Positions 1,647 through 12,771 of a stretch of 60,160 nucleotides of DNA are shown here, piece after piece (the first letter of the stretch is position 1; every line of letters starts with the position of its first letter). Source of the DNA: Candidatus Zhuqueibacterota bacterium. Lineage in GTDB: Bacteria > BS750m-G25. Both the position numbers and the translations under genes were made by a program. The stretch lies in NCBI GenBank assembly GCA_016783505.1, contig JADHWK010000011.1, positions 1 to 60,160 of the forward strand, written 5' to 3'. A model generated the notes under the pieces. That model searched no databases and had not been told where the DNA came from. It saw only the letters and a list, made by a program, of their open reading frames with translations.

Positions 1647-2831
1647 ATGAAATCTTCTGCATTATTGAAGTATTTCATAATCGGCTTTGCCGTCGGTTTA
1701 GCGGGCATTCTCCTGTTTAAGGGATTGCCATATCGGGAAGGGGGGGAAAGTCCGGTAAGGCAGCCCCTGTTGGTGAAAAATATTGCTGCCCAGGAGATAC
1801 AGGACGAGATTACAGCTTCCCGTCAAAACGCCATCACCCGGGCGGTAAAGAAGGCGGGACCAGCCGTGGTGGGGATCAACGTCACCCAGGTGAGGGAATA
1901 CCGGGCCCGGAATCCCTTCTTCAATGATCCCTTTTTTCGGGACTTCTTTCCTCCCCTGATTTATCGTCAGCCCATCAAAAGTCTGGGCTCCGGGCTTCTG
2001 ATCTCCGATGACGGCTACATCCTGACCAATGAACACGTGGTCCACAATGCGGTGGAAATCATCGTCACCCTCACCGACGGGGAACAATATGATGCGGAGC
2101 CGGTGGGGGCGGATTTTAACTCCGACATCGCCCTGTTGAAAATAGAAGGTAATGATTTTCATTCTCTCAAATTTGGCAATTCGGACGATATTATCATCGG
2201 GGAGTGGGTGATCGCCATCGGTAATCCCTACGGATTGTTTTCTATCAATAATGAACCCACGGTAACCGTGGGGGTGGTGAGCGCCGTGAACCGGGATTTT
2301 GGCAAATTACAGAATCGGCGGGTGTATAAGGATATGATCCAGACCGACGCCTCCATCAATCCGGGTAATTCGGGAGGACCCCTGATCAATTCGCTGGGCG
2401 AGGTCATCGGGATGAACACCATGATCTATTCGGAGAGCGGGGGCTCCATCGGGCTGGGGTTTGCCATTCCCATCAATTACGTCAAAGAGATCGTGGATGA
2501 TCTGAGGGAACGGGGCGGGGTAAACCGGAATTACTGGACGGGTTTAAGCATTCAGGACGTGGACCGGCTGATCGCCTGGAGCCTGGGGCTTAAGTCCACC
2601 AAAGGGGTGATTGTCACCGACGTGGAAAAGGGCAGCCCGGCCGAAAAGGTGGGGGTTGAAGTAGCCGACGTGATCCTGGAAATGAATGGGATCGAGATCA
2701 ATAATGATCGGGATGTCCGTGAACTCCTCCAGAATAGCGACCTTAAGGTAGGGGATAAGCTGGAACTTAAAATCTTCCGTGATGGGAAAATCCTCAAGAA
2801 GAAAGTCAAATTGGAGGCGGTGGGGGGATAA
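1647..2831 (+). CDS. HtrA/Deg-family serine protease with one PDZ domain
   Basis: A 394-residue envelope protease of the trypsin-like S1C family, which degrades misfolded periplasmic proteins. Residues 9-28 form an uncleaved-looking membrane anchor. The catalytic triad is visible: His130 (TNEHVV), Asp160 (SDIALL) and Ser242 (GNSGGPL). A single PDZ domain occupies about residues 295-390 with the carboxylate loop near TGLSIQD. It is closer to the DegS layout (anchor, protease, one PDZ) than to DegP, which has two PDZ domains. It is the last chromosomal gene before the integron. Specific substrates cannot be inferred. Confidence 0.93.
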   Translation: MKSSALLKYFIIGFAVGLAGILLFKGLPYREGGESPVRQPLLVKNIAAQEIQDEITASRQNAITRAVKKAGPAVVGINVTQVREYRARNPFFNDPFFRDFFPPLIYRQPIKSLGSGLLISDDGYILTNEHVVHNAVEIIVTLTDGEQYDAEPVGADFNSDIALLKIEGNDFHSLKFGNSDDIIIGEWVIAIGNPYGLFSINNEPTVTVGVVSAVNRDFGKLQNRRVYKDMIQTDASINPGNSGGPLINSLGEVIGMNTMIYSESGGSIGLGFAIPINYVKEIVDDLRERGGVNRNYWTGLSIQDVDRLIAWSLGLKSTKGVIVTDVEKGSPAEKVGVEVADVILEMNGIEINNDRDVRELLQNSDLKVGDKLELKIFRDGKILKKKVKLEAVGG

Positions 2832-2865
2832 TTAGAACATAAATTTTTGAACTGAGGGGGCAGTT

Positions 2866-3193
2866 ATGTCTCCTTTTAGCCAAAATTATACTGTTAAAAA
2901 GAAATCCAAAATTCTTGACCAGATACATTCCGCCATTCGAACCAGGCATTACAGCCTCCGTACTGAAGAAGCTTATGTTAACTGGATCAAAAGATTTATC
3001 CTTTTTCACAAGAAACGGCACCCTCTTGAAATGAGTGAGAAAGAAATAAATCAGTTTTTAACCTACCTTGCGGCATTCATTTGCGACACATCTGTTAGAA
3101 GCTGGATATGATATTCGAACTGTACAAGAATTATTAGGTCACAAAAATCTGGCAACAACGATGATTTATACGCATGTTCTGAATATAGGCTAG
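2866..3193 (+). pseudogene. integron integrase (IntI-type tyrosine recombinase), internally deleted
   Basis: The first 68 codons or so encode the N-terminal SAM-like DNA-binding domain, with the integron-integrase pattern IRTRHYSLRTEEAYVNWIKR. At about 3070 the frame breaks. From 3074 to 3193 another frame encodes the C-terminal catalytic end, [20 protein letters not shown], then LLGHKN and MIYTHVLN, including the His-x-x-His-type motif residues and the nucleophile Tyr in IYTHV. Everything between (roughly 200 residues, including the first catalytic Arg and the IntI-specific patch) is gone. The IYTHVLN ending is characteristic of integron integrases. The deletion plus frame change make it non-functional. 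Confidence 0.88.
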
Positions 3194-3308
3194 TTATTTA
3201 GATTTAACCGCTTGTTATTTAGAATCTATAACCACCAAAATACAAATGAGCTTATCCATCTCATCAAGATGGTTTTGCTGATTTCATTGGAATGGATATA
3301 CTTAGGTT
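3185..3308 (+). repeat. 124-bp direct repeat, copy 1 (candidate attI)
   Basis: This stretch overlaps the last codons of the integrase remnant and is repeated, with scattered substitutions, at 5422-5545. Both copies end at AGGTT, exactly at a G^TT integron core, and diverge immediately after (GTTGGGC here, GTTATGC in copy 2). It holds a short hairpin, CCATCT-CATCA-AGATGG. A sequence beside the integrase that precedes the first cassette and ends at the crossover point is what an attI site should look like. Confidence 0.65.
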
Positions 3309-3600
3309 GGGCGGATGAAATGACATATATTGCGTACACCTAGTTAGACGAAAAGATTGGCTAAATGGAGGACGGATTGAGACGGAGTTTATAGACAATA
3401 GAAAAGGCGAAGTTAAAAGGTGACAGCTAATACAAGACAGACACTCACGATCGAAATGATGATAATGACGATGTTGTTGTTGATAATGATGATGGTGGTG
3501 GTGAACGGTGACGACGTCAACCATGACAATGCTGAGAACATAGGCAAGATGGCTAAAGGCGACAAATCGATTTGACACACTAACCAGTTTGGAGAGTCTC
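3309..3600. other. cassette A leader, non-coding, with low-complexity tract
   Basis: No convincing gene is present. The segment opens with the core heptamer GTTGGGC (3306-3312) and holds a second core-like heptamer, GTTAGAC, at 3343-3349. Bases 3457-3517 are a drifted trinucleotide tract (GAT/GTT/GGT units). The tract produces a spurious His-rich reading frame on the minus strand. TTGGAGAG at 3589-3596 is the ribosome site of the next gene. Confidence 0.6.
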
Positions 3601-5109
3601 ATGGAACAAAGCAGTAATAAAAAGAATACACCACGACAATTGATGGAACTTGCAGTGCAAGAGGGCGAACACTCCATCCCTGAGCATCATGACAAAGAAG
3701 ACCCGTTTGTCGGAGCTATTGTAGCAACCAAGGACGGAAAGATTCTGGCGAAGGCTCATCGTGGAGAACTACGTGTTGGTGAACACTGCGAGTTCACGCT
3801 CCTTGAAAGAAAGCTTCGCGATCAGAACCTTTCCGGTTGTGATCTGTATGTAACCATGGAACCCTGTACTGATGAATCCAGAGGACCTGGAAAGCGGGGT
3901 TGTGCAACCCATATTGCCAGCGCTCGCATCGTGACCGTATATATTGGAATAGATGACCCCAATCCTACGATCGCTCGTGAGGGTATTCGATACCTTATCT
4001 CAAAAAATGTGGTGGTGCACCCGTTCGACGCCGACATGCAGGAGAAAATTAGAGAGAGGAATGCTGCTTTCATCAAGGAGAAAGAAGAAGAGGTAAAGAC
4101 TATTGCTTTGAAGGAGGCTGAGGAAGGAAAGAAGACTCTTCTCGAAAGGTCCAAAGCTGATGCATCATTTGCTGGTCTTTCTAATAACACCCTGCAAAAA
4201 TTCGTCGAGCTTTCTAAACTCCCTTATGCGTTCCCGTCGATAGATTTTAATAAGTGGGCAACTGAATATGGATTGCTGGAACAAACGGATGGAACAACTG
4301 AACCTCGGCCCACTGGGCTAGGGAGCATGCTCTTTGGCCAGCGACCTTCAATTTTTTACCCACAAGTCATTTTCAAGACCGAGATCCAATACGGTACGGG
4401 AGAGCCGGAAATACACGACTTTGAGGATCCGCTTGTGCTTCAATGGCCGCAGATTCGTGAGTATCTCTTAAGCAAGGCTTTCAAACTCCCAATAAATAGA
4501 TCAGGTGGGGAACGCATCGAAACTCCTGATTTTCCAATAGACGTAATTCGCGAAGCCGTGGTCAATGCAATTGTTCATCGCGATTACAACATCGAAGGTG
4601 CGACAAACTATCTCTACATTGATCCTGAGAAGATCATTATTCGGAGCCCGGGAGTTGTTGTTCCGCCAATTACACTTGAAGACCTAAGAGAATTCAAGGC
4701 ATCGTGGTACAGTCGCAATCCGAAAATCATGTATGTGTTCAATCAGATGAGGCTTGCTGAACAGCGGGGCAAAGGGATAAGCAGCATGAAGCAATTGCCC
4801 TCGCTTGGATTTCCTCTTCCCACATTTGAGATTCAGGGGGGTAGCCTAGTTGTTACTTTTGCGAGAACTCGAACTGCGGCGGGTAAAGCTGATATATCAG
4901 CACTGGAGTACAAGGAATTGTTGTTCATTCAGGCCTATGAACCGATTACGCGGGCACAATTCGCTAAAGAGTTCAACCTGCCTACCAGGACTGCCCAAAA
5001 CCATCTCGGCCGGCTTATTGACATGGGTGTCATTTCCCCGAAGGGAAAAGGCAAGGCAATAAAGTATTATCATAAAAGGATGAGCGTAATGGATAGCAAT
5101 GAACTCTGA
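3601..5109 (+). CDS. cytidine-deaminase-like / HATPase_c_4 / winged-helix fusion protein
   Basis: A 502-residue cassette A protein. Residues 1-140 carry a zinc deaminase fold of the dCMP/RibD type, with GEHCEF as the His-x-Glu-like motif and MEPCT...RGCATH as the Pro-Cys...Cys motif. Residues about 310-420 match the ATP-binding domain seen in Schlafen/AlbA-2 and RecG-like regulators (REAVVNAIVHRDY, GKGISSM). The last 65 residues form a winged helix (ITRAQFAKEFNLPTRTAQNH). The usual Schlafen-like N-terminal domain seems replaced by the deaminase. The start is ATG 3601, five bases after GGAGAG; an upstream in-frame TTG at 3589 is less likely. Role unknown; a nucleotide-sensing or phage-defence function is inference. 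Confidence 0.72.
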   Translation: MEQSSNKKNTPRQLMELAVQEGEHSIPEHHDKEDPFVGAIVATKDGKILAKAHRGELRVGEHCEFTLLERKLRDQNLSGCDLYVTMEPCTDESRGPGKRGCATHIASARIVTVYIGIDDPNPTIAREGIRYLISKNVVVHPFDADMQEKIRERNAAFIKEKEEEVKTIALKEAEEGKKTLLERSKADASFAGLSNNTLQKFVELSKLPYAFPSIDFNKWATEYGLLEQTDGTTEPRPTGLGSMLFGQRPSIFYPQVIFKTEIQYGTGEPEIHDFEDPLVLQWPQIREYLLSKAFKLPINRSGGERIETPDFPIDVIREAVVNAIVHRDYNIEGATNYLYIDPEKIIIRSPGVVVPPITLEDLREFKASWYSRNPKIMYVFNQMRLAEQRGKGISSMKQLPSLGFPLPTFEIQGGSLVVTFARTRTAAGKADISALEYKELLFIQAYEPITRAQFAKEFNLPTRTAQNHLGRLIDMGVISPKGKGKAIKYYHKRMSVMDSNEL

Positions 5110-5127
5110 ATCGCACCACAAATCGCA

Positions 5128-5205
5128 CCAACATGGCGCGATTCATGTTTTTTACCTGTTTGGTTAGGATGATCGCGCTATTATGCGAGCCAACATGGCG
5201 CGATT
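5128..5205. repeat. 16-bp direct repeat pair CCAACATGGCGCGATT
   Basis: The same 16 bases occur at 5128-5143 and 5190-5205, 62 bases apart. Each copy is part of an imperfect palindrome; TCGCACC can pair with GGCGCGA around the AACAT loop in the first. The pair lies just after the fusion gene and could be a remnant of an attC body or a small palindromic repeat. Confidence 0.5.
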
Positions 5206-5314
5206 AAGATTACGAAGAAATCTTGCTGGTTCTATTCGTGCCAATCTTCTCCGCCTAACTAAAACGGTAATATGTGCAGAATAGTCAAATATATAGTCTA
5301 AATATTGCCGCCCA

Positions 5315-5365
5315 ACCAGGCATTACAGCCTCCGGACTGAAGAAGCTTATGTTAACTGGATCAAA
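5315..5365 (+). pseudogene. 51-bp duplicate scrap of the integrase gene
   Basis: Matches 2941-2991 of the integrase remnant with a single mismatch (T to G) over 51 bases. It begins at AACC, immediately within the inverted core GCCCAAC, and is followed after 56 unrelated bases by the second 124-bp repeat. Integrase scrap plus 124-bp repeat therefore occur twice in the same order. Confidence 0.8.
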
Positions 5366-5421
5366 GTAATATCAAGGGGATGAGTTTATCCGTCTGATTC
5401 GGATGGATAAACCAGAGCAAA

Positions 5422-5545
5422 ATAGGCTGGTTATTCATATTTAACTGCTTGTTATTTAAAGGTTATAAACATCAAAATTCAAATGAGTTTATCCATCTCA
5501 TCAAGATGGTTTTGCTGATTTCATTGGGATGGATATACTTAGGTT
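5422..5545 (+). repeat. 124-bp direct repeat, copy 2 (candidate attI before cassette B)
   Basis: Aligns without length change to 3185-3308. Ends at AGGTT with the core GTTATGC (5543-5549), which opens cassette B. That heptamer is the exact complement of GCATAAC at 6920, the R'' core at the far end of cassette B. Confidence 0.7.
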
Positions 5546-5573
5546 ATGCTGAAATCTAATGGGGGGTAAAATT

Positions 5574-6902
5574 ATGAAATCATCATATACAAAATGTCTT
5601 AATTGTAACACAGTGAATTTATCAATAAGCATTTTATGCAGTGTATGTTCAAAACTACTAATTAGGCTTCGTTGGTGGTTTTTTATATTACTATTTATAT
5701 CATTTGCTATCTCTAGTTATCTTAGTGGCCAATTAGGATTAATTTGGTTCGAATATGTATATTTGGAATTATTAGTCATAGGTATAATATTTATCTTGTT
5801 AAGAAATCATACAAAACTTTGGCCTTCTTTATTCTTTTTCTTTTTTTTATCTTTTATCTTAATTCTATTACACAATTATTATGATCAATTTTCTTTTCTA
5901 CCAAAGGTTACTACTTCATTTATTAAATTACTAATTGCTATTTATTTACCTATTGCCTATTGGTTTTCTTTTGTTAGAGCCTGTAAAGAAACTGAGCAGA
6001 GCATAATAAAGAGCTTTTCCGTATTTTCATTAGTAGTTTTTATTCTTTTAAATTTATTAAAATTAATCAATAAATATTTCTTATTAGTCGATGAAAATAT
6101 AATATCTGTAATTACCAAGAGTTTATATTTAAGGGAGATATTTTTAATAATATCGATTCTATTCGCTTCATACATTTCTTTTATCAACGCATTGAAAAGA
6201 AGAATTTCTCAACCACAAGACTTATTTTCAAAAATTACACATGTTCCTGATTTTACTTTTAATCCAGAAGTAAATTGGATTAGTTCATTTTTACCAATCA
6301 TTAAAGTAATATATATAGTCACATCAAAAATTTATATAATAATAATTACATTCATAAAAGAGGTCATCAATATTTTTAAAAGAATAATGGAATATTTAGT
6401 AAAATTTCTAAATAACTTTATTTTAGAATTCATACAACTTACCAATAATTTAATAAAAGTATTTCTTAGAAGTGTGAGATTTTATATTACATTAAATATG
6501 ATACCACTTTTCATGTTATTTCTAATATCAATTGTTAATGTTCGCTTATCTCAAAATATCTTTCTTTTTATTAACTCATCAAACAACATAAGTCACTTAT
6601 TTAATATAATGTTAAAGATATTTTATATTGTATTTCTATCTTTTTTCATGTTATGGTCTATTACTGAATATAATTTTAAAAAGTTTAGGGATAGTTATAT
6701 TTTTTCAGCAACGTTTATAATTTTCACTATTTTTATTGGTTCATTGTTATCATCATATGCTCTATATGTATTCGCAAAATTTCTAGACAATTCTGTTTTT
6801 AAAAGCTTCAATATCTTTTTAGTTACTGGTACTATTTTATTAGGAATATTTTTAGTTTCTATGTTTACTTACAGTAAAATTAAGAAGGAAAAGACGATTT
6901 AA
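5574..6902 (+). CDS. AT-rich multi-span membrane protein with N-terminal zinc ribbon
   Basis: A 442-residue cassette B protein. The first 30 residues contain two Cys-x-x-Cys pairs, CLNC and CSVC, eleven residues apart, a treble-clef zinc ribbon at the membrane surface. The rest is mostly hydrophobic, with roughly eight to ten membrane segments rich in Ile, Leu and Phe and a charged loop near the centre (residues about 205-285). The gene is strikingly rich in A and T compared with the chromosome. The start is ATG 5574, seven bases after GGGGGGT; an ATG at 5559 lies before that ribosome site. No family recognised and no function assigned. Confidence 0.75.
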   Translation: MKSSYTKCLNCNTVNLSISILCSVCSKLLIRLRWWFFILLFISFAISSYLSGQLGLIWFEYVYLELLVIGIIFILLRNHTKLWPSLFFFFFLSFILILLHNYYDQFSFLPKVTTSFIKLLIAIYLPIAYWFSFVRACKETEQSIIKSFSVFSLVVFILLNLLKLINKYFLLVDENIISVITKSLYLREIFLIISILFASYISFINALKRRISQPQDLFSKITHVPDFTFNPEVNWISSFLPIIKVIYIVTSKIYIIIITFIKEVINIFKRIMEYLVKFLNNFILEFIQLTNNLIKVFLRSVRFYITLNMIPLFMLFLISIVNVRLSQNIFLFINSSNNISHLFNIMLKIFYIVFLSFFMLWSITEYNFKKFRDSYIFSATFIIFTIFIGSLLSSYALYVFAKFLDNSVFKSFNIFLVTGTILLGIFLVSMFTYSKIKKEKTI

Positions 6903-6919
6903 TAATTCTATAATATTAA

Positions 6920-7106
6920 GCATAACCCAAAAATGCACCGGATGAAAACGCTACCCTCAATTTTCACATTTCAGTTCGGCCAACTCATGTTTCGGGCGTT
7001 GATATTGGTTTTTCTTGTTGGGGTCATTCTTTTCGTTCAGTTGTATATTCGTCCGGTGTTCTGGTAGTTTATCGGTTGGTTTCACCTGTTATGCGAATCG
7101 TTAGGC
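6920..7106 (+). repeat. attC site of cassette B (187 bp)
   Basis: R'' is GCATAAC (6920-6926) and the closing core is GTTAGGC (7100-7106), with crossover after G7100. The arms pair imperfectly: the left arm GGATGAAAACGCTACC resembles the reverse complement of the right arm, with an extra A after GG. A second heptamer, GTTATGC, lies at 7089-7095. The cassette opens at 5543 with GTTATGC, the exact complement of GCATAAC. The long variable loop is typical of large attC sites. Confidence 0.75.
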
Positions 7107-7126
7107 TGAAAAATCGGTAAAACATT

Positions 7127-7843
7127 ATGAATGAAAAAGCACCATCCACACTCACGCTTGATGAAATTGAAGAGATTGAAAAGCTTACGCTTCGTTGGAT
7201 TTTTCAGGCCGTTTTGGACTTTGGGATGGAAGCGCCTGAAATCTTTCTCAAGTCCCCTGATCGTGTAAAAGATATTGCCGAAGATATAACGAGAGAACTG
7301 TTGGATAGATTGCCGGGATATAATGTTCCACAACGTATCTATGGCACTGTGGATTACAAAAAAGCAAGATATATCATTTTGCCGGACCAAACCGTTAGGC
7401 AAACCTTGTTTATCGAGTCTAAAGCGGAAAAAGAACATAGATCAGCAACCATCCAAATGTCGCAACTCTCCATTTGGGTTCGGCAACGACGTTCAGGTAG
7501 TGAGATTAACGAAAAGGGGTTTTTACCGGAAATCTCTGAATACGGGGGGAAGCATTATTTAACAACCACCTCCCTAGTGCATTTTATGTACAAAGACGAA
7601 GGAGGAATGCACCATCTCAAAGAAGTGACCATAGCAGCCGTCCCTAATGGGCTATTACAAGATCGCTATAACCCTACTTGTGAGGACACGATCTGGTTGG
7701 CTGGAAGAAATGCGCCAACACTTGGTGAGGATTTTCGGGTGAGACTGAGTTTCTCAAAACTGAAGCAAAAGGCTTCATGGCGAATTCAAAAAATTATCTA
7801 CGATGAATCTACAGGGGAGTGCACAGGGCAATGGCAGTCGTAA
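7127..7843 (+). CDS. SfiI-type type II restriction endonuclease
   Basis: A 238-residue protein resembling SfiI, a tetrameric type IIF endonuclease that cuts GGCC-N5-GGCC after binding two sites. Matching stretches include AEDITRELLD, GTVDYKKARY, LFIESKAEK, IQMSQL and LLQDRYNP. The active-site pattern is Asp76, Glu97 and Lys99, with the same 21-residue and 2-residue spacings I recall for SfiI (Asp79, Asp100, Lys102), but with Glu in place of the second Asp. Its end overlaps the methyltransferase gene by 13 bases, and both sit in one cassette. Sequence specificity may differ from SfiI. Start ATG 7127; the ribosome site is weak. Confidence 0.85.
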   Translation: MNEKAPSTLTLDEIEEIEKLTLRWIFQAVLDFGMEAPEIFLKSPDRVKDIAEDITRELLDRLPGYNVPQRIYGTVDYKKARYIILPDQTVRQTLFIESKAEKEHRSATIQMSQLSIWVRQRRSGSEINEKGFLPEISEYGGKHYLTTTSLVHFMYKDEGGMHHLKEVTIAAVPNGLLQDRYNPTCEDTIWLAGRNAPTLGEDFRVRLSFSKLKQKASWRIQKIIYDESTGECTGQWQS

Positions 7844-8850
7844 AGATTTCAGAGTATCTTAAATCCAATCACATATATCACGGGGATGCCAGGGTGCTTC
7901 TGAAAAAAATAGAGCCTGAAACCGTTGCATTGAGCTTATGGTCACCGCCCTATTTTGTCGGAAAGGATTATGAAAAGGAGTTAACCTTTGACGACTGGAA
8001 GCATCTTCTTCATGAGACCATTGCCCTGCATTACGAAATCCTAAAACCAGGGGGGTTCTTAGCGATAAATATTGCGGATATTCTATGTTTTAAGGATGAA
8101 TCTATGCCAAAAATCATGGCTGAAAATGTCTCAAGAAGAAAAATTGATCTTACAAGAGCACAAATATTAAAAGTAAAAGATAAGAATCCCGACTGGAATC
8201 GCTATAAGCTCGCAGAATACTTTGGTTGTAGTGAACAAACTATAGATAGAAGGCTACACGGAAACAATATACGAGGCGGCAAATATCAAGCCCAGACGAG
8301 AGTTTTCATTGTGGGTGGGCTTATAGAGAGAATGGCTTTAGATGCTGGTTTATATGCTTATGATAGACGTATTTGGGTAAAAGACGCGGCATGGGAAAGC
8401 TCCAGGTGGCATACGATTTCCTATCGGGCCGTTGATGAATTCGAATATTTGTATGTTTTCTGGAAACCTGGCGTAACAAAAGTGGATCGCTCCAGATTAA
8501 CCAAGCAAGAGTGGATCAACTGGGGGTCGAGAGGCATTTGGGAAATCCCTTCCGTGCGAAGCAATGCGGATCATGAATCAAAATTTCCCATTGAATTACC
8601 CAGAAGGGCTATAAAGCTATTTACAGATTCAGAGGATATTGTGCTGGATTGCTTTATTGGAAGTGGAACAACGGCTTTAGCGGCAATAAGTGAAGGGCGA
8701 AGGTATATTGGAATCGATAAAGAAAAGAGGTCGGTAGAAATATCTAGGGCAGCGGTGGCCTCGTATCATGAATATGCCAAAGAGCCTCAACAAATGGAAT
8801 TAATGGTGCAAGAAATAGAAGCCAAATATGAAGCAAAAACCGAAACCTAA
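7831..8850 (+). CDS. DNA N4-cytosine methyltransferase (SfiI-type modification enzyme)
   Basis: A 339-residue S-adenosylmethionine-dependent methyltransferase. The catalytic motif SPPY is at residues 38-41 and the cofactor loop FIGSGTT at 275-281, so the order is catalytic first, as in beta-class enzymes. SPPY rather than DPPY points to cytosine N4 methylation. Residues about 120-143 form a helix-turn-helix insert (KLAEYFGCSEQTIDRR). It overlaps the nuclease gene and presumably protects host sites from it. The start is taken as ATG 7831; GTG 7819 lies right against AGGGGAG and seems too close. The stop codon lies inside the attC core, a tight cassette. Confidence 0.88.
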   Translation: MAVVKISEYLKSNHIYHGDARVLLKKIEPETVALSLWSPPYFVGKDYEKELTFDDWKHLLHETIALHYEILKPGGFLAINIADILCFKDESMPKIMAENVSRRKIDLTRAQILKVKDKNPDWNRYKLAEYFGCSEQTIDRRLHGNNIRGGKYQAQTRVFIVGGLIERMALDAGLYAYDRRIWVKDAAWESSRWHTISYRAVDEFEYLYVFWKPGVTKVDRSRLTKQEWINWGSRGIWEIPSVRSNADHESKFPIELPRRAIKLFTDSEDIVLDCFIGSGTTALAAISEGRRYIGIDKEKRSVEISRAAVASYHEYAKEPQQMELMVQEIEAKYEAKTET

Positions 8851-8916
8851 CAACAGCTTGCAGTTGACCGCTCCTCTGCTACGCTCCACAGTGGCAACTG
8901 AAGCTGGGCGTTATGC
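8845..8916 (+). repeat. attC site of cassette C (72 bp)
   Basis: R'' is ACCTAAC (8845-8851) and the closing core is GTTATGC (8910-8916). The left arm CAGCTTGCAGTTGACC matches the reverse complement of the right arm, CAGCTTCAGTTGCC, except for an extra G and an extra A. This is the compact, classic attC form with extrahelical bases. Cassette C opens with GTTAGGC (7100), complementary to the R'' core at six of seven positions. Confidence 0.9.
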
Positions 8917-8942
8917 TGTATATTAAAATTTAGAGGTTAATC

Positions 8943-10241
8943 ATGGCATCTAAAATTATTTTAACGGATGAAGAAATAATCACATGCCCTCAATGTTCAA
9001 ATAAATTTTCATTACATCAAGGTATTACGAGACAGACACTTGATAAATATGAAGAAGAATTTAATAATGAAATTAAGGAACAGAGTAAAAGATCAGAAGA
9101 AAGAATACGTGCTGAGTTAGAAAAACAATTGAAATCTGTCTATTCTGTTGAAGTTCAAGAACTCAAGGATAAATTATCAGATAAAGAAGCAATATTAAAT
9201 CGAGCAAGAATCAAGTTTAAAAATTTGCAAACGGAAGAACGCAAAAAACTCGAAGAGGAATTTGAATTAGAGAAAAAAAGCTACTTCGAAGAAATATCAA
9301 GAAAAGACTCAGAATTGAAGAAATTTAGGGAGCAAGAGATAGAATTGAGAAATGAAAAACGTAAACTTGAAGATGACAAAAAGAATATGGAGTTAGAAGT
9401 TCAAAGAAAAATTGATACAGAAAAAGATAAAATGTATGAACAAATATCAAAAGATATATCTGATAAATTTCGACTAAAAGAATCAGAATATCAAAAGAAG
9501 TTGAGCGATGCCCAAAGAGCTAATGAAGAACTTGAAAGAAAATTAAAGCAAGGATCACAACAACTTCAAGGAGAAGTGTTAGAGCTCGAGATAGAAAAAT
9601 TATTATATACAGAATTCCCCCTCGATAATATCAATCCTGTTAAAAAAGGGGAACGTGGTGCTGATATTTTACAAGAAGTATGCACGCCGACTGGTCAAAT
9701 TTGTGGTACTATAATATGGGAAGCCAAAAATCAAAAAAATTGGTCTGATAAATGGATTCAAAAATTAAAGGATGATCAAATAGAAGTCAATGCCGAAATT
9801 GCTGTTATTGTAAGTTCTTCCTTGCCTAAAGATATGCAAGAATTATTTGAACGTAGAGATGATATTTGGATTTCAAGCGATAAAGTAGTTAAACCAGTAG
9901 CTCATTCCTTACGATTAATGTTACTTGAAATGAATAAAATAAAGATGGTAAGTGCAGGTAAAAGCGAAAAAATGGAATTGTTGTATGATTATTTATGTAG
10001 CCATCAATTCACACAAAAAGTAAAAGGAGTCATAGAGACTTTCGTAAATATGAAAACAGAATTAGATCAAGAAAAAAATGCTTTTCAAAGAATTTGGAAA
10101 AAACGTGAAAGTCAAATTGATAGAGTAGTTAATAATATGAGTAGTATGATAGGTGAATTGCAAGGTATTGCACAGCATTCAATTCCACAATTAGAGGATA
10201 TACAACCTCTGTTATTGCCAGTTTCTGATGATGAGTTATAG
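8943..10241 (+). CDS. DUF2130 coiled-coil protein with nuclease-like fold
   Basis: A 432-residue cassette D protein. It starts with a CPQC knuckle, then has a long charged coiled coil (residues about 25-205). Residues about 208-330 match the DUF2130 core, with GERGADIL and Glu260-x-Lys262 in IWEAKNQKNW. Together with Asp241 this looks like a PD-(D/E)xK nuclease-type active site. A second helical coil closes the protein. DUF2130 proteins are widespread and often found on mobile DNA, but their biochemical role is not established to my knowledge. A DNA-processing or defence role is inference. Start ATG follows AGAGG at 8931-8935. Confidence 0.85.
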   Translation: MASKIILTDEEIITCPQCSNKFSLHQGITRQTLDKYEEEFNNEIKEQSKRSEERIRAELEKQLKSVYSVEVQELKDKLSDKEAILNRARIKFKNLQTEERKKLEEEFELEKKSYFEEISRKDSELKKFREQEIELRNEKRKLEDDKKNMELEVQRKIDTEKDKMYEQISKDISDKFRLKESEYQKKLSDAQRANEELERKLKQGSQQLQGEVLELEIEKLLYTEFPLDNINPVKKGERGADILQEVCTPTGQICGTIIWEAKNQKNWSDKWIQKLKDDQIEVNAEIAVIVSSSLPKDMQELFERRDDIWISSDKVVKPVAHSLRLMLLEMNKIKMVSAGKSEKMELLYDYLCSHQFTQKVKGVIETFVNMKTELDQEKNAFQRIWKKRESQIDRVVNNMSSMIGELQGIAQHSIPQLEDIQPLLLPVSDDEL

Positions 10242-10248
10242 ATAATCA

Positions 10249-10378
10249 GCATAACAAAAATTTCAACCTGACTGGAACAGCGATTGGCGAATTTGATTTT
10301 TCGGTACTCGCAATACGTTTTCAAAAATATTGAAATACAATGCGTCGTATGTTCCAGCAGGTTATTTTCACGTTATAC
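10249..10378 (+). repeat. attC site of cassette D (130 bp)
   Basis: R'' is GCATAAC (10249-10255) and the closing core is GTTATAC (10372-10378). The left arm AACCTGACTGGAAC matches the reverse complement of the right arm, AACCTGCTGGAAC, except for one extra A. Cassette D opens with GTTATGC (8910), the exact complement of this R''. Confidence 0.9.
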
Positions 10379-10397
10379 GCGTAAATAGAGGGCTAAA

Positions 10398-11198
10398 ATG
10401 AATCCTGAATTTTGGCGCAATTTTTTCCAATGGATGATGTACATTGCCACTGCATTTATTCTAATTGGTACCATTGGTGTAAATATTTTTACTAAGAAAA
10501 TTGAAAAACTTGAAAAAGATAAAACAGCATTACTTGAAAGGCAGCGTGATGCTGAAATAGAAAAAAATATAAAAAATACAGAAAAACTATTAACACTGAA
10601 TACTTTCCTTGGGGGAATTGATAATCCCGTTGAAAAGCTGTTCTTAATAATTGACTTTTATCGGTCCTGCACAGTTGAAGAACTACAAGGATTTGTATGT
10701 TATTTAAACTTCCATAAAATAAATAGGACTTATGAATTTAAAGTTAGTCACGCAATGAAACATCCTGAAAATGAAATGAGATTATTCTTGAAACAAAAAT
10801 CTGTAAATAGTGGAGAATGGAACTCTAATCCATCTATTATGCAAGCTTTCCACAATAGAGCTGAAACTTCATTTTTAGCATTCGATCTTTGGTACTTTTT
10901 AAAAGAGAAACCGAAAGGATTAAAAATAAGAGATTTAAATTCAGCATTTTTCGAAATTGCTGTTAGCAAGAAACACTCCAATTTAATAAAAGAATTTCAA
11001 ATCAATGTAAATGACTGGACAATAATACATAGAAATTGTATTGATAATAATTGGAAAGATTATAAGTCAGATTGGTTGCCTTCCGATAAAATTGAACTCG
11101 GAGCATATTACTATCGTGATTTTCAAAATAGAGAAATAATAACGCAAAGAATTGATTTTTTCCAAGAAGGTGCCTCTCGTTATTATGTTATGTTTTAA
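10398..11198 (+). CDS. unknown membrane-anchored protein of cassette E
   Basis: A 266-residue protein I do not recognise. Residues about 10-32 form one membrane span (MMYIATAFILIGTIGVNIF), followed by a short charged coiled coil (about 33-65) and then a soluble, mostly helical domain rich in aromatic residues that would lie in the cytoplasm. Short N-terminal anchors with a coil are common in defence and signalling effectors, but nothing here identifies an enzyme. Start ATG 10398 with GAGGG at 10388-10392. The gene is AT-rich like cassettes B and D. Confidence 0.65.
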   Translation: MNPEFWRNFFQWMMYIATAFILIGTIGVNIFTKKIEKLEKDKTALLERQRDAEIEKNIKNTEKLLTLNTFLGGIDNPVEKLFLIIDFYRSCTVEELQGFVCYLNFHKINRTYEFKVSHAMKHPENEMRLFLKQKSVNSGEWNSNPSIMQAFHNRAETSFLAFDLWYFLKEKPKGLKIRDLNSAFFEIAVSKKHSNLIKEFQINVNDWTIIHRNCIDNNWKDYKSDWLPSDKIELGAYYYRDFQNREIITQRIDFFQEGASRYYVMF

Positions 11199-11206
11199 TA
11201 ATTCGC

Positions 11207-11393
11207 CCATAACACAGCAATGCAGGGGATGCGACCGCCCCCTTTCATTCGTTATTTTCGGTTTGGCCTACGGTCGGTTACAGCGTTCATTTATATTGCA
11301 TGAATTGGGTTTCGTTTCATTGTTTTTGTAAGTTAAGGTTTTTTGTTCAGGTCGGTTCGTGGTTGGTCGCACCCCTGATCGCCAACGTTAATC
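11207..11393 (+). repeat. attC site of cassette E, end of the array (187 bp)
   Basis: R'' is CCATAAC (11207-11213) and the closing core is GTTAATC (11387-11393). The left arm CAGGGGATGCGACC matches the reverse complement of the right arm, CAGGGGTGCGACC, with one extra A. The opening core of cassette E, GTTATAC, matches this R'' imperfectly. Beyond 11393 the sequence is the short leader of purB, so this is the last site of the array. Confidence 0.88.
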
Positions 11394-11454: not shown

Positions 11455-12771
11455 ATGTTAGAACGCTACACCCTTCCCGAAATGGGGGAGGTTTGGTCGG
11501 AAGAACATAAGTTTGAAACCTGGCTCCGGGTGGAAATTGCCGTCTGTGAAGCCCAGGCCGAAATGGGGTTAATCCCGAAAGAAGCGGTTTCCGTCATCAG
11601 GGAAAAAGCTGCATTTGACGTTGGGCGAATTCAGGAGATCGAAGAAAAGGTCAATCACGACGTCATCGCCTTCCTGACCAACGTGGCCGAAAACGTGGGT
11701 GCCGAGGCCCGGTATGTTCATCTGGGGATGACCTCTTCGGATGTCCTGGATACAGCTTCGGCCCTGAGGTTACAGGAAGCCGGTGACATTATTTCAAGAA
11801 AAATAGAGTCTCTGAAAAGCCTGCTGGCCGGAAAAGCCCTTCAATATCGTGACAGGGTCATGATCGGCCGTACCCACGGGATGCATTCAGAGCCCATTAC
11901 CCTGGGTCTCAAATTCGCCGTCTATTTCTATGAAATGGGTCGTAACATCCAGCGTTTCCAAAGGGCACTGGACGGGATTTCTTTCGGCAAGATCTCCGGG
12001 GCGGTGGGCACTTTTGCTTTCTTAGACCCCAGCATAGAGGAGAAGACCTGTTCCCTTTTGGGTCTGAAGCCGGCTCCCATATCCACCCAGGTCCTGCAAC
12101 GGGACCGTCATGCTGAATTTTTAACAACGCTGGCCATTATTGCCGGTTCGCTTGAAAAAATCGCCACCGAGATCAGGAATTTGCAGCGGACGGAAATTCT
12201 GGAGGTGGAAGAGCCCTTCGGCAAAGGTCAGAAAGGCTCCTCAGCCATGCCCCATAAACGGAACCCTATCACCTGCGAACGGATCGTCGGCTTAGCCCGG
12301 ATGGTCCGGGCCAACGCTATGGTTGCCTTAGAGAATATCGCCCTGTGGCATGAGCGGGATCTCACCCATTCTTCGGCCGAGAGGATCATCTTCCCCGATA
12401 CCACTATTCTTATTGATTACATGCTGGAAAAAACGATCGCTGTTTTAGAAAACCTGACGGTTTATCCGGAGAACATGGAGGCCAATCTTAACCTACTGAA
12501 TGGTCTCATTTTCTCCCAGGCGGTGCTGTTAGCCCTGGTAAAAAAAGGGATGGACCGGGAAGGGGCATACCGAATAGTGCAGCGGAACGCCATGGCGGCT
12601 TCTCGAGCCCGGGAAAATTTTAAAGAGAAAATATCGGGGGATAAAACCATAAAGAAATTATTAACTCTTGAAGAGATAGAAGATTGTTTTGACCTGAAAA
12701 CACACTTGAGAAACATAGACCGGATTTATGAGAGAGCAGGGTTAGGTAGCGTAAATCAGCGGGGTGGATAG
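11455..12771 (+). CDS. purB: adenylosuccinate lyase
   Basis: A 438-residue member of the fumarase/aspartase superfamily. It acts twice in purine synthesis, releasing fumarate from SAICAR and from adenylosuccinate. The signature loop SSAMPHKRNP is at residues 262-271, with Ser263 as the expected catalytic serine. Upstream TSSDVLDTA and RTHGMHSEP carry the other active-site residues. Length and motifs are those of the short bacterial form. The start ATG follows AGGAAAAAA. It abuts purC with no gap, the first gene of a compact plus-strand run, and lies directly downstream of the last attC. Confidence 0.97.
   Translation: MLERYTLPEMGEVWSEEHKFETWLRVEIAVCEAQAEMGLIPKEAVSVIREKAAFDVGRIQEIEEKVNHDVIAFLTNVAENVGAEARYVHLGMTSSDVLDTASALRLQEAGDIISRKIESLKSLLAGKALQYRDRVMIGRTHGMHSEPITLGLKFAVYFYEMGRNIQRFQRALDGISFGKISGAVGTFAFLDPSIEEKTCSLLGLKPAPISTQVLQRDRHAEFLTTLAIIAGSLEKIATEIRNLQRTEILEVEEPFGKGQKGSSAMPHKRNPITCERIVGLARMVRANAMVALENIALWHERDLTHSSAERIIFPDTTILIDYMLEKTIAVLENLTVYPENMEANLNLLNGLIFSQAVLLALVKKGMDREGAYRIVQRNAMAASRARENFKEKISGDKTIKKLLTLEEIEDCFDLKTHLRNIDRIYERAGLGSVNQRGG

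Follow-up and report, generated by a model that had tools for sequence, protein, structure and literature searches.

A decayed reverse integron with a duplicated attI-like site between htrA and purB in a Candidatus Zhuqueibacterota genome

The interval between htrA and purB in Candidatus Zhuqueibacterota bacterium BS750m-G25 (assembly GCA_016783505.1, contig JADHWK010000011.1) carries the remains of an integron integrase gene (intI), followed on the same strand by cassettes and their recombination sites (attC). The window analyzed here comprises 60 kb (60,160 nucleotides) of a genome whose assembly is 60% complete, with 2.5 Mb searched. In our reading, to which a probability of roughly 0.88 is attached, a reverse integron with five cassettes came to occupy the htrA-purB gap and lost its integrase by deletion. 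This reading is carried by the sequence affinities of the integrase remnant, four attC sites that rank above every other match in the window, a second copy of an attI-like site, and genomes in which htrA and purB are separated by only a few dozen nucleotides.

The Integrase Remnant

3062 to 3193, + strand: intI pseudogene, C-terminal piece (TIGR02249 positions 264-304; alignment to intact relatives)
2866 to 3072, + strand: intI pseudogene, N-terminal piece (PF13495; TIGR02249)

The two pieces of intI lie in different reading frames, separated by a deletion of about 205 codons. The N-terminal piece contains the SAM-like domain PF13495 (E 1.3e-18) and matches positions 1-54 of the integron-integrase model TIGR02249 (E 4.6e-17); no XerC or XerD model is among its matches. 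The C-terminal piece represents the catalytic end of the enzyme, with the motifs HSFATHLL and IYTHV, and scores 76.7 bits against TIGR02249 versus 69.7 for XerC and 66.2 for XerD. It retains the catalytic Tyr, and the first His of the HxxR motif is gone. Over the 100 retained residues, the best IntI proteins are 72-78% identical to the remnant, as opposed to 35-40% for the genome's own Xer-type recombinases. The intact relatives, which come from a Neomarinimicrobiota, Bacteroidetes, Calditrichia, and others, are full-length TIGR02249 proteins of 436-488 bits, relative to a cut-off of 265 bits. A preliminary description of this stretch had proposed an integron-type rather than Xer-type integrase that died through loss of its middle part, and both proposals are upheld by these comparisons.

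The deletion junction reads CCTACCTTGCGGCATTC, where intact relatives have CCTCGC or TCTTGC at the N-terminal boundary and CCCTGCGACA at the C-terminal boundary; on this comparison, a deletion through a short repeat is plausible. With some 205 codons missing and the frame shifted, the gene no longer specifies a functional integrase, and the locus is therefore classed as a decayed integron. Such decay is common, as approximately one-third of surveyed intI genes are pseudogenes (PMC2426708).

attC Sites of the Array

6920 to 7106, + strand: attC of cassette 2 (weak, degenerate)
8845 to 8916, + strand: attC of cassette 3 (strong)
10249 to 10378, + strand: attC of cassette 4 (strong)
11207 to 11393, + strand: attC of cassette 5, array end (moderate to weak)

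As a guard against circularity, R''/L''/L'/R' hairpins were sought at IntI-bearing loci of other genomes, and 37 textbook attC sites obtained in this way, with the R and L helices written by hand, formed the covariance model R1. Run over the 60-kb window with filters off, R1 gave its two best matches at 8845-8916 (46.4 bits, E 1.1e-9) and 10249-10378 (18.7 bits, E 0.011) and did not report the sites at 6920 and 11207. For this reason, a second model (R2) was built from 27 attC matches in 12 stretches on other contigs of the same genome, none of them from the window's contig. Across both strands of the window, the first four ranks of R2 fall exactly on the four positions named in the preliminary description: 8845 (42.9 bits, E 1.5e-7), 10249 (36.2 bits, E 4.9e-6), 11210 (17.7 bits, E 0.079), and 6920 (16.8 bits, E 0.13). 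The fifth match reaches 10.6 bits. Taken singly, the sites at 11207 and 6920 are not significant; their support comes from filling both of the remaining gaps between cassettes.

A scan for base pairing recovered two of the four sites under tight spacer limits, and wider spacers added the third and, weakly, the fourth. The scores at 10249, 8845, and 11207 were 17, 14, and 13, values that shuffled sequence attained at most 0.025, 0.18, and 0.28 times per 60 kb, respectively; the score of 9 at 6920-7073 is not significant by itself. For 10249-10378, the bottom strand also folds with a z score of -5.2. Each of the three better sites possesses one extrahelical base in the L'' arm and runs from R'' to R' on the + strand. 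This extra base fixes the orientation of the sites, so that the attC sites share one direction with the cassettes and with intI. A match at 5310-5357 was rejected as an attC, being weak and overlapping an intI fragment, and a search of the window at Rfam gathering thresholds returned no match.

A Second attI-Like Site

3244 to 3308, + strand: proposed attI, copy 1 (65 nt; crossover G^TT at 3306-3308)
5314 to 5365, + strand: intI fragment, second copy (52 nt; 98% identical to 2940-2991)
5481 to 5545, + strand: proposed attI, copy 2 (crossover G^TT at 5543-5545)

The sequence at 3182-3308, which follows the intI stop codon, recurs at 5419-5545, and part of intI recurs just upstream of this repeat. 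The copies differ at 1 of 52 positions in the intI piece, 12 of 62 in the spacer, and 2 of 65 in the attI core (3244-3308 and 5481-5545). They part directly after GTT, one continuing with GGGCGG and the other with ATGCTG, that is, with two different cassette starts. On account of this abrupt divergence, the duplicate 65-nt stretches are read as two putative attI sites, each with a cassette joined at G^TT; the crossover lies about 115 bp past the intI stop codon. The complete attI1 site is likewise 65 nt long (PMC12901181). When two complete attI sites flank a cassette in a class 1 integron, excision by active IntI1 reaches 100% (PMC12901181), and the survival of an attI-flanked cassette 1 would thus fit a dead integrase. 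The second attI and the second intI fragment are additions to the earlier picture of a single platform with five cassettes, of which the cassette number stands and the single platform gives way to a more complex arrangement.

Promoter-like sites in 2800-5700 occur at chance level, and a small terminator-like hairpin lies within both attI copies, with a count near chance. A short palindromic element (GTTTATCC...GGATAAAC, 5380-5413), located after the intI fragment and before attI copy 2, resembles the hairpin inside the two attI copies (3246-3303 and 5483-5540).

Cassettes and Insertion Site

3307 to 5313, + strand: cassette 1, open reading frame (ORF) 3589-5109 (PF00383, 2.4e-11; PF13749, 4.9e-13)
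5544 to 7106, + strand: cassette 2, membrane protein ORF 5559-6902 (23% GC), attC at its end
7101 to 8916, + strand: cassette 3, SfiI-like endonuclease 7127-7843 and N6/N4 DNA methylase 7819-8850
8911 to 10378, + strand: cassette 4, DUF2130 protein 8943-10241 (PF09903, 1.3e-61)
10373 to 11393, + strand: cassette 5, ORF 10398-11198, family unassigned
1647 to 2831, + strand: HtrA/DegP-like serine protease gene, left flank
11455 to 12771, + strand: purB (adenylosuccinate lyase), right flank

The five cassettes hold six genes, and every reading frame is open despite the wrecked intI. Their GC content (0.23-0.47) contrasts with that of htrA (0.52) and purB (0.51). Cassette 1 encodes a protein with a cytidine-deaminase-like domain and a RecG-C-type ATPase-like domain, and cassette 3 a type II restriction-modification pair (PF11487, 7e-88; PF01555, 1e-38), also matched in PADLOC as REase_II (1e-33) and MTase_II (1.7e-143). 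For the proteins of cassettes 2 and 5, Pfam and PADLOC gave no match. The attC of cassette 1 is truncated or lost at its 3' end: GCCTAAC is present at about 5253, and the partial site runs into the second intI fragment, with the junction at 5313. The sequence at this point, GCCCAACCAGGCATT, is similar to the left portion of an attC (cf. GCCCAACCAGGCATTCAAGC in locus L061), so an attC may have recombined with intI through the shared AACCAGGCATT.

Homologs of purB were found in 56 of the 59 genomes searched. In three of 11 purB neighborhoods examined, all from other phyla (L151, L153, and L158), an HtrA gene lies directly 5' of purB, the two matches being 29-72 nt apart. In these three, a homolog of the window gene at 1-315, a putative transaldolase-like gene, precedes htrA, and psd follows purB, with purC between them in two. 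Given these short gaps, the integron occupies an htrA-purB gap that was originally short, as comparison of neighborhoods for an empty site, proposed in the preliminary description, had been meant to reveal; its placement of the array beside purB and of five cassettes downstream of intI on the same strand also holds. htrA, the interval 2866-11393, and purB are all on the + strand. The position between htrA and purB is chromosomal and not on a mobile element, in keeping with a sedentary chromosomal integron.

Farther to the left, two adjoining retropepsin-like aspartyl protease genes (809-1619) separate htrA from the gene at 1-315; the spacing in L151, L153, and L158 suggests that the pair is absent from the corresponding gap there. 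A short low-complexity run of ATGGAT-type words (370-530) lies upstream of these protease genes.

Reverse Layout and Relationship to Known Integrons

Since intI, the cassette ORFs, and all attC sites are on the + strand and attI is at the 3' end of intI, the locus has the layout of a reverse integron and represents a decayed example of an established type. Integrons of this direction were described for Treponema (PMC3607928) and named reverse integrons (PMC7691350), and IntI of Spirochaetota is generally in reverse orientation (PMC9668308). The Treponema denticola integron shares with the present locus attC sites with R'', L'', L', and R' and cassettes mostly of unknown function (PMC3607928; PMC7691350). 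It differs in that here the integrase is pseudogenized and attI occurs twice.

The layout was also sorted at IntI loci of other genomes from the R1 and R2 matches around them. Among the closest 80 relatives, a sample from which Treponema is absent and which offers a lead rather than a census, about 40 could be classified: 15 loci have attC on the + strand downstream of intI, and about 26 have the canonical layout (attC on the - strand, upstream). The same-strand loci (including L014, L025, L028, L041, L045, L050, L052, L068, L070, and L072) belong to Acidobacteriota, Myxococcota/Deltaproteobacteria, Nitrospirota, Methylomirabilota, Bacteroidota, and Tectomicrobia. Thus the layout, which had been associated with Treponema at the outset, is indeed a known one and is not restricted to that genus. 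In a maximum-likelihood tree of 68 IntI rows, the two layouts require two changes among the labeled rows. Thirteen of the 14 same-strand rows then labeled form one group without canonical members (support 83/35, weak), and L068, labeled as same-strand later, is also inside it. The outlier, L014 from Acidobacteria, joins the group without penalty (P value of the approximately unbiased test, p-AU, 0.516). The halves of the fossil, for which placement in an IntI phylogeny had been proposed, may be joined to the same group without rejection (p-AU 0.479); with 100 residues retained, they take no firm position in the tree. Taken together, these sequence comparisons suggest that reverse integrons may be a phylogenetically coherent and widespread group and not a Treponema oddity. 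More tentatively, and with the odds in our estimation about two to one against, the same-strand layout might have arisen once, long ago, in one IntI lineage that now extends over at least six phyla, with the fossil as a member from a sparsely sampled phylum and the paired attI sites as the product of a fusion of two such platforms that preceded the death of both integrases.

Two other kinds of structure invite comparison. With four attC sites, a deleted intI, and no IntI scoring above the cut-off in the 2.5 Mb searched, the locus would probably be classified by the rules of IntegronFinder as a cluster of attC sites lacking integron-integrases (CALIN; PMC9024848), and it has been proposed that such clusters are integrons in a degraded state (PMC9024848). 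An attC array without a functional integrase is common to both. Unlike a typical CALIN, the present array still has recognizable integrase and attI remnants, and its origin by integrase decay is visible. The attI-flanked or delta-attI cassettes of class 1 and 2 integrons (PMC12901181) likewise show a cassette followed by attI and not by a complete attC; in the present case, an intI fragment accompanies the second attI, and the integron is chromosomal.

Proposed History and Alternative Explanations

A chromosomal reverse integron would have entered, or been assembled in, the htrA-purB intergenic gap. Its working IntI would have joined single-stranded attC hairpins to attI at G^TT, and with the attI end lying beyond the intI stop codon, cassettes would run in the direction of intI. 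A rearrangement may then have introduced an additional copy of attI together with a portion of intI, each attI having its own cassette junction. Both intI copies would later have been deleted in part, the first losing its central codons and its frame. The local platform could then make no integrase, and the five cassettes would stay unless an IntI acts from elsewhere. The intI remnants, the attC sites, the attI-like duplication, the orientation, and the insertion as compared with other genomes are seen directly; the order of these events, past activity, and present immobility are what we infer. Accordingly, the earlier view of a once active integron with frozen cassettes is firm with regard to the dead local integrase; the freezing itself is likely.

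Several observations weigh against this history. Cassette 1 lacks a complete attC, the attC sites at 11207 and 6920 are not significant singly, and the IntI-specific insert near patch III falls within the deleted part of the pseudogene. The uneven divergence between the two copies is not fully explained by a simple duplication in place followed by neutral decay, and an intact IntI could reside in the missing 40% of the assembly.

This last point raises the prospect that the array is still dynamic, with only the local integrase dead and an intact IntI acting in trans, an explanation that we rate as appreciable but well short of even odds. About 30 further attC-like matches lie on at least 15 contigs (including C39, C17, C73, C53, C77, C13, and C72; L129-L140), several near contig ends, and the 6-kb contig C39 is an unbroken cassette array with many lipoprotein-like genes, nearly all on one strand. 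Given these many sites and the incompleteness of the assembly, an intact IntI elsewhere could exist, and the attC sites at 8845 and 10249 do look intact. However, no IntI over the cut-off was found in the 2.5 Mb searched; the sole other IntI fragment, an N-terminal fossil near the end of contig C11 (8994-9107; L007:1500-1630) that is about 53% identical to that of the window, has an in-frame stop; and an active IntI would be expected to resolve the two attI sites around cassette 1 (PMC12901181). TIGR02249 also matches fragments on C82 and C62; these are partial and C-terminal only, and we do not count them as IntI.

Another alternative, otherwise compatible with the preferred history, bears solely on where attI copy 2 came from: two reverse integrons, or an integron and a stray attI-bearing fragment of a related one, would have been joined without any duplication in place. 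We regard it as a serious contender that falls slightly below an even chance. A divergence of 19% in the spacer, compared with 3% in the attI core and 2% in the intI piece, suggests a split while attI and intI were under selection, and contig C11 harbors a second intI fossil. Conversely, the remaining fragments are short, the contrast is statistically modest (p 0.03 against the attI core and 0.003 against the intI piece), and selection on one active copy together with gene conversion could yield the same pattern. Finally, a XerC/XerD-like remnant beside hairpins that are ordinary repeats or terminators, with no integron at all, would accord with the XerC and XerD matches of the C-terminal piece. 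This explanation is contradicted by the N-terminal piece, which matches IntI and neither Xer model, by the identity values, and by the four attC sites ranking first in 60 kb, and we consider it extremely improbable. Neither outcome that the preliminary description had named as fatal, the integrase halves siding with XerC/XerD or covariance matches missing at the four sites, came about: R1 reports two of the sites and R2 all four.

Implications

At this locus, an integrase remnant, attI, an attC array, and the empty site are readable together, which makes it a clear illustration of how integrase decay gives rise to a CALIN. Through the duplication of attI, a 65-nt attI core is delimited naturally in an integron from outside the Proteobacteria, equal in length to attI1. 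The grouping of reverse integrons beyond Treponema is, moreover, open to testing on full IntI collections.

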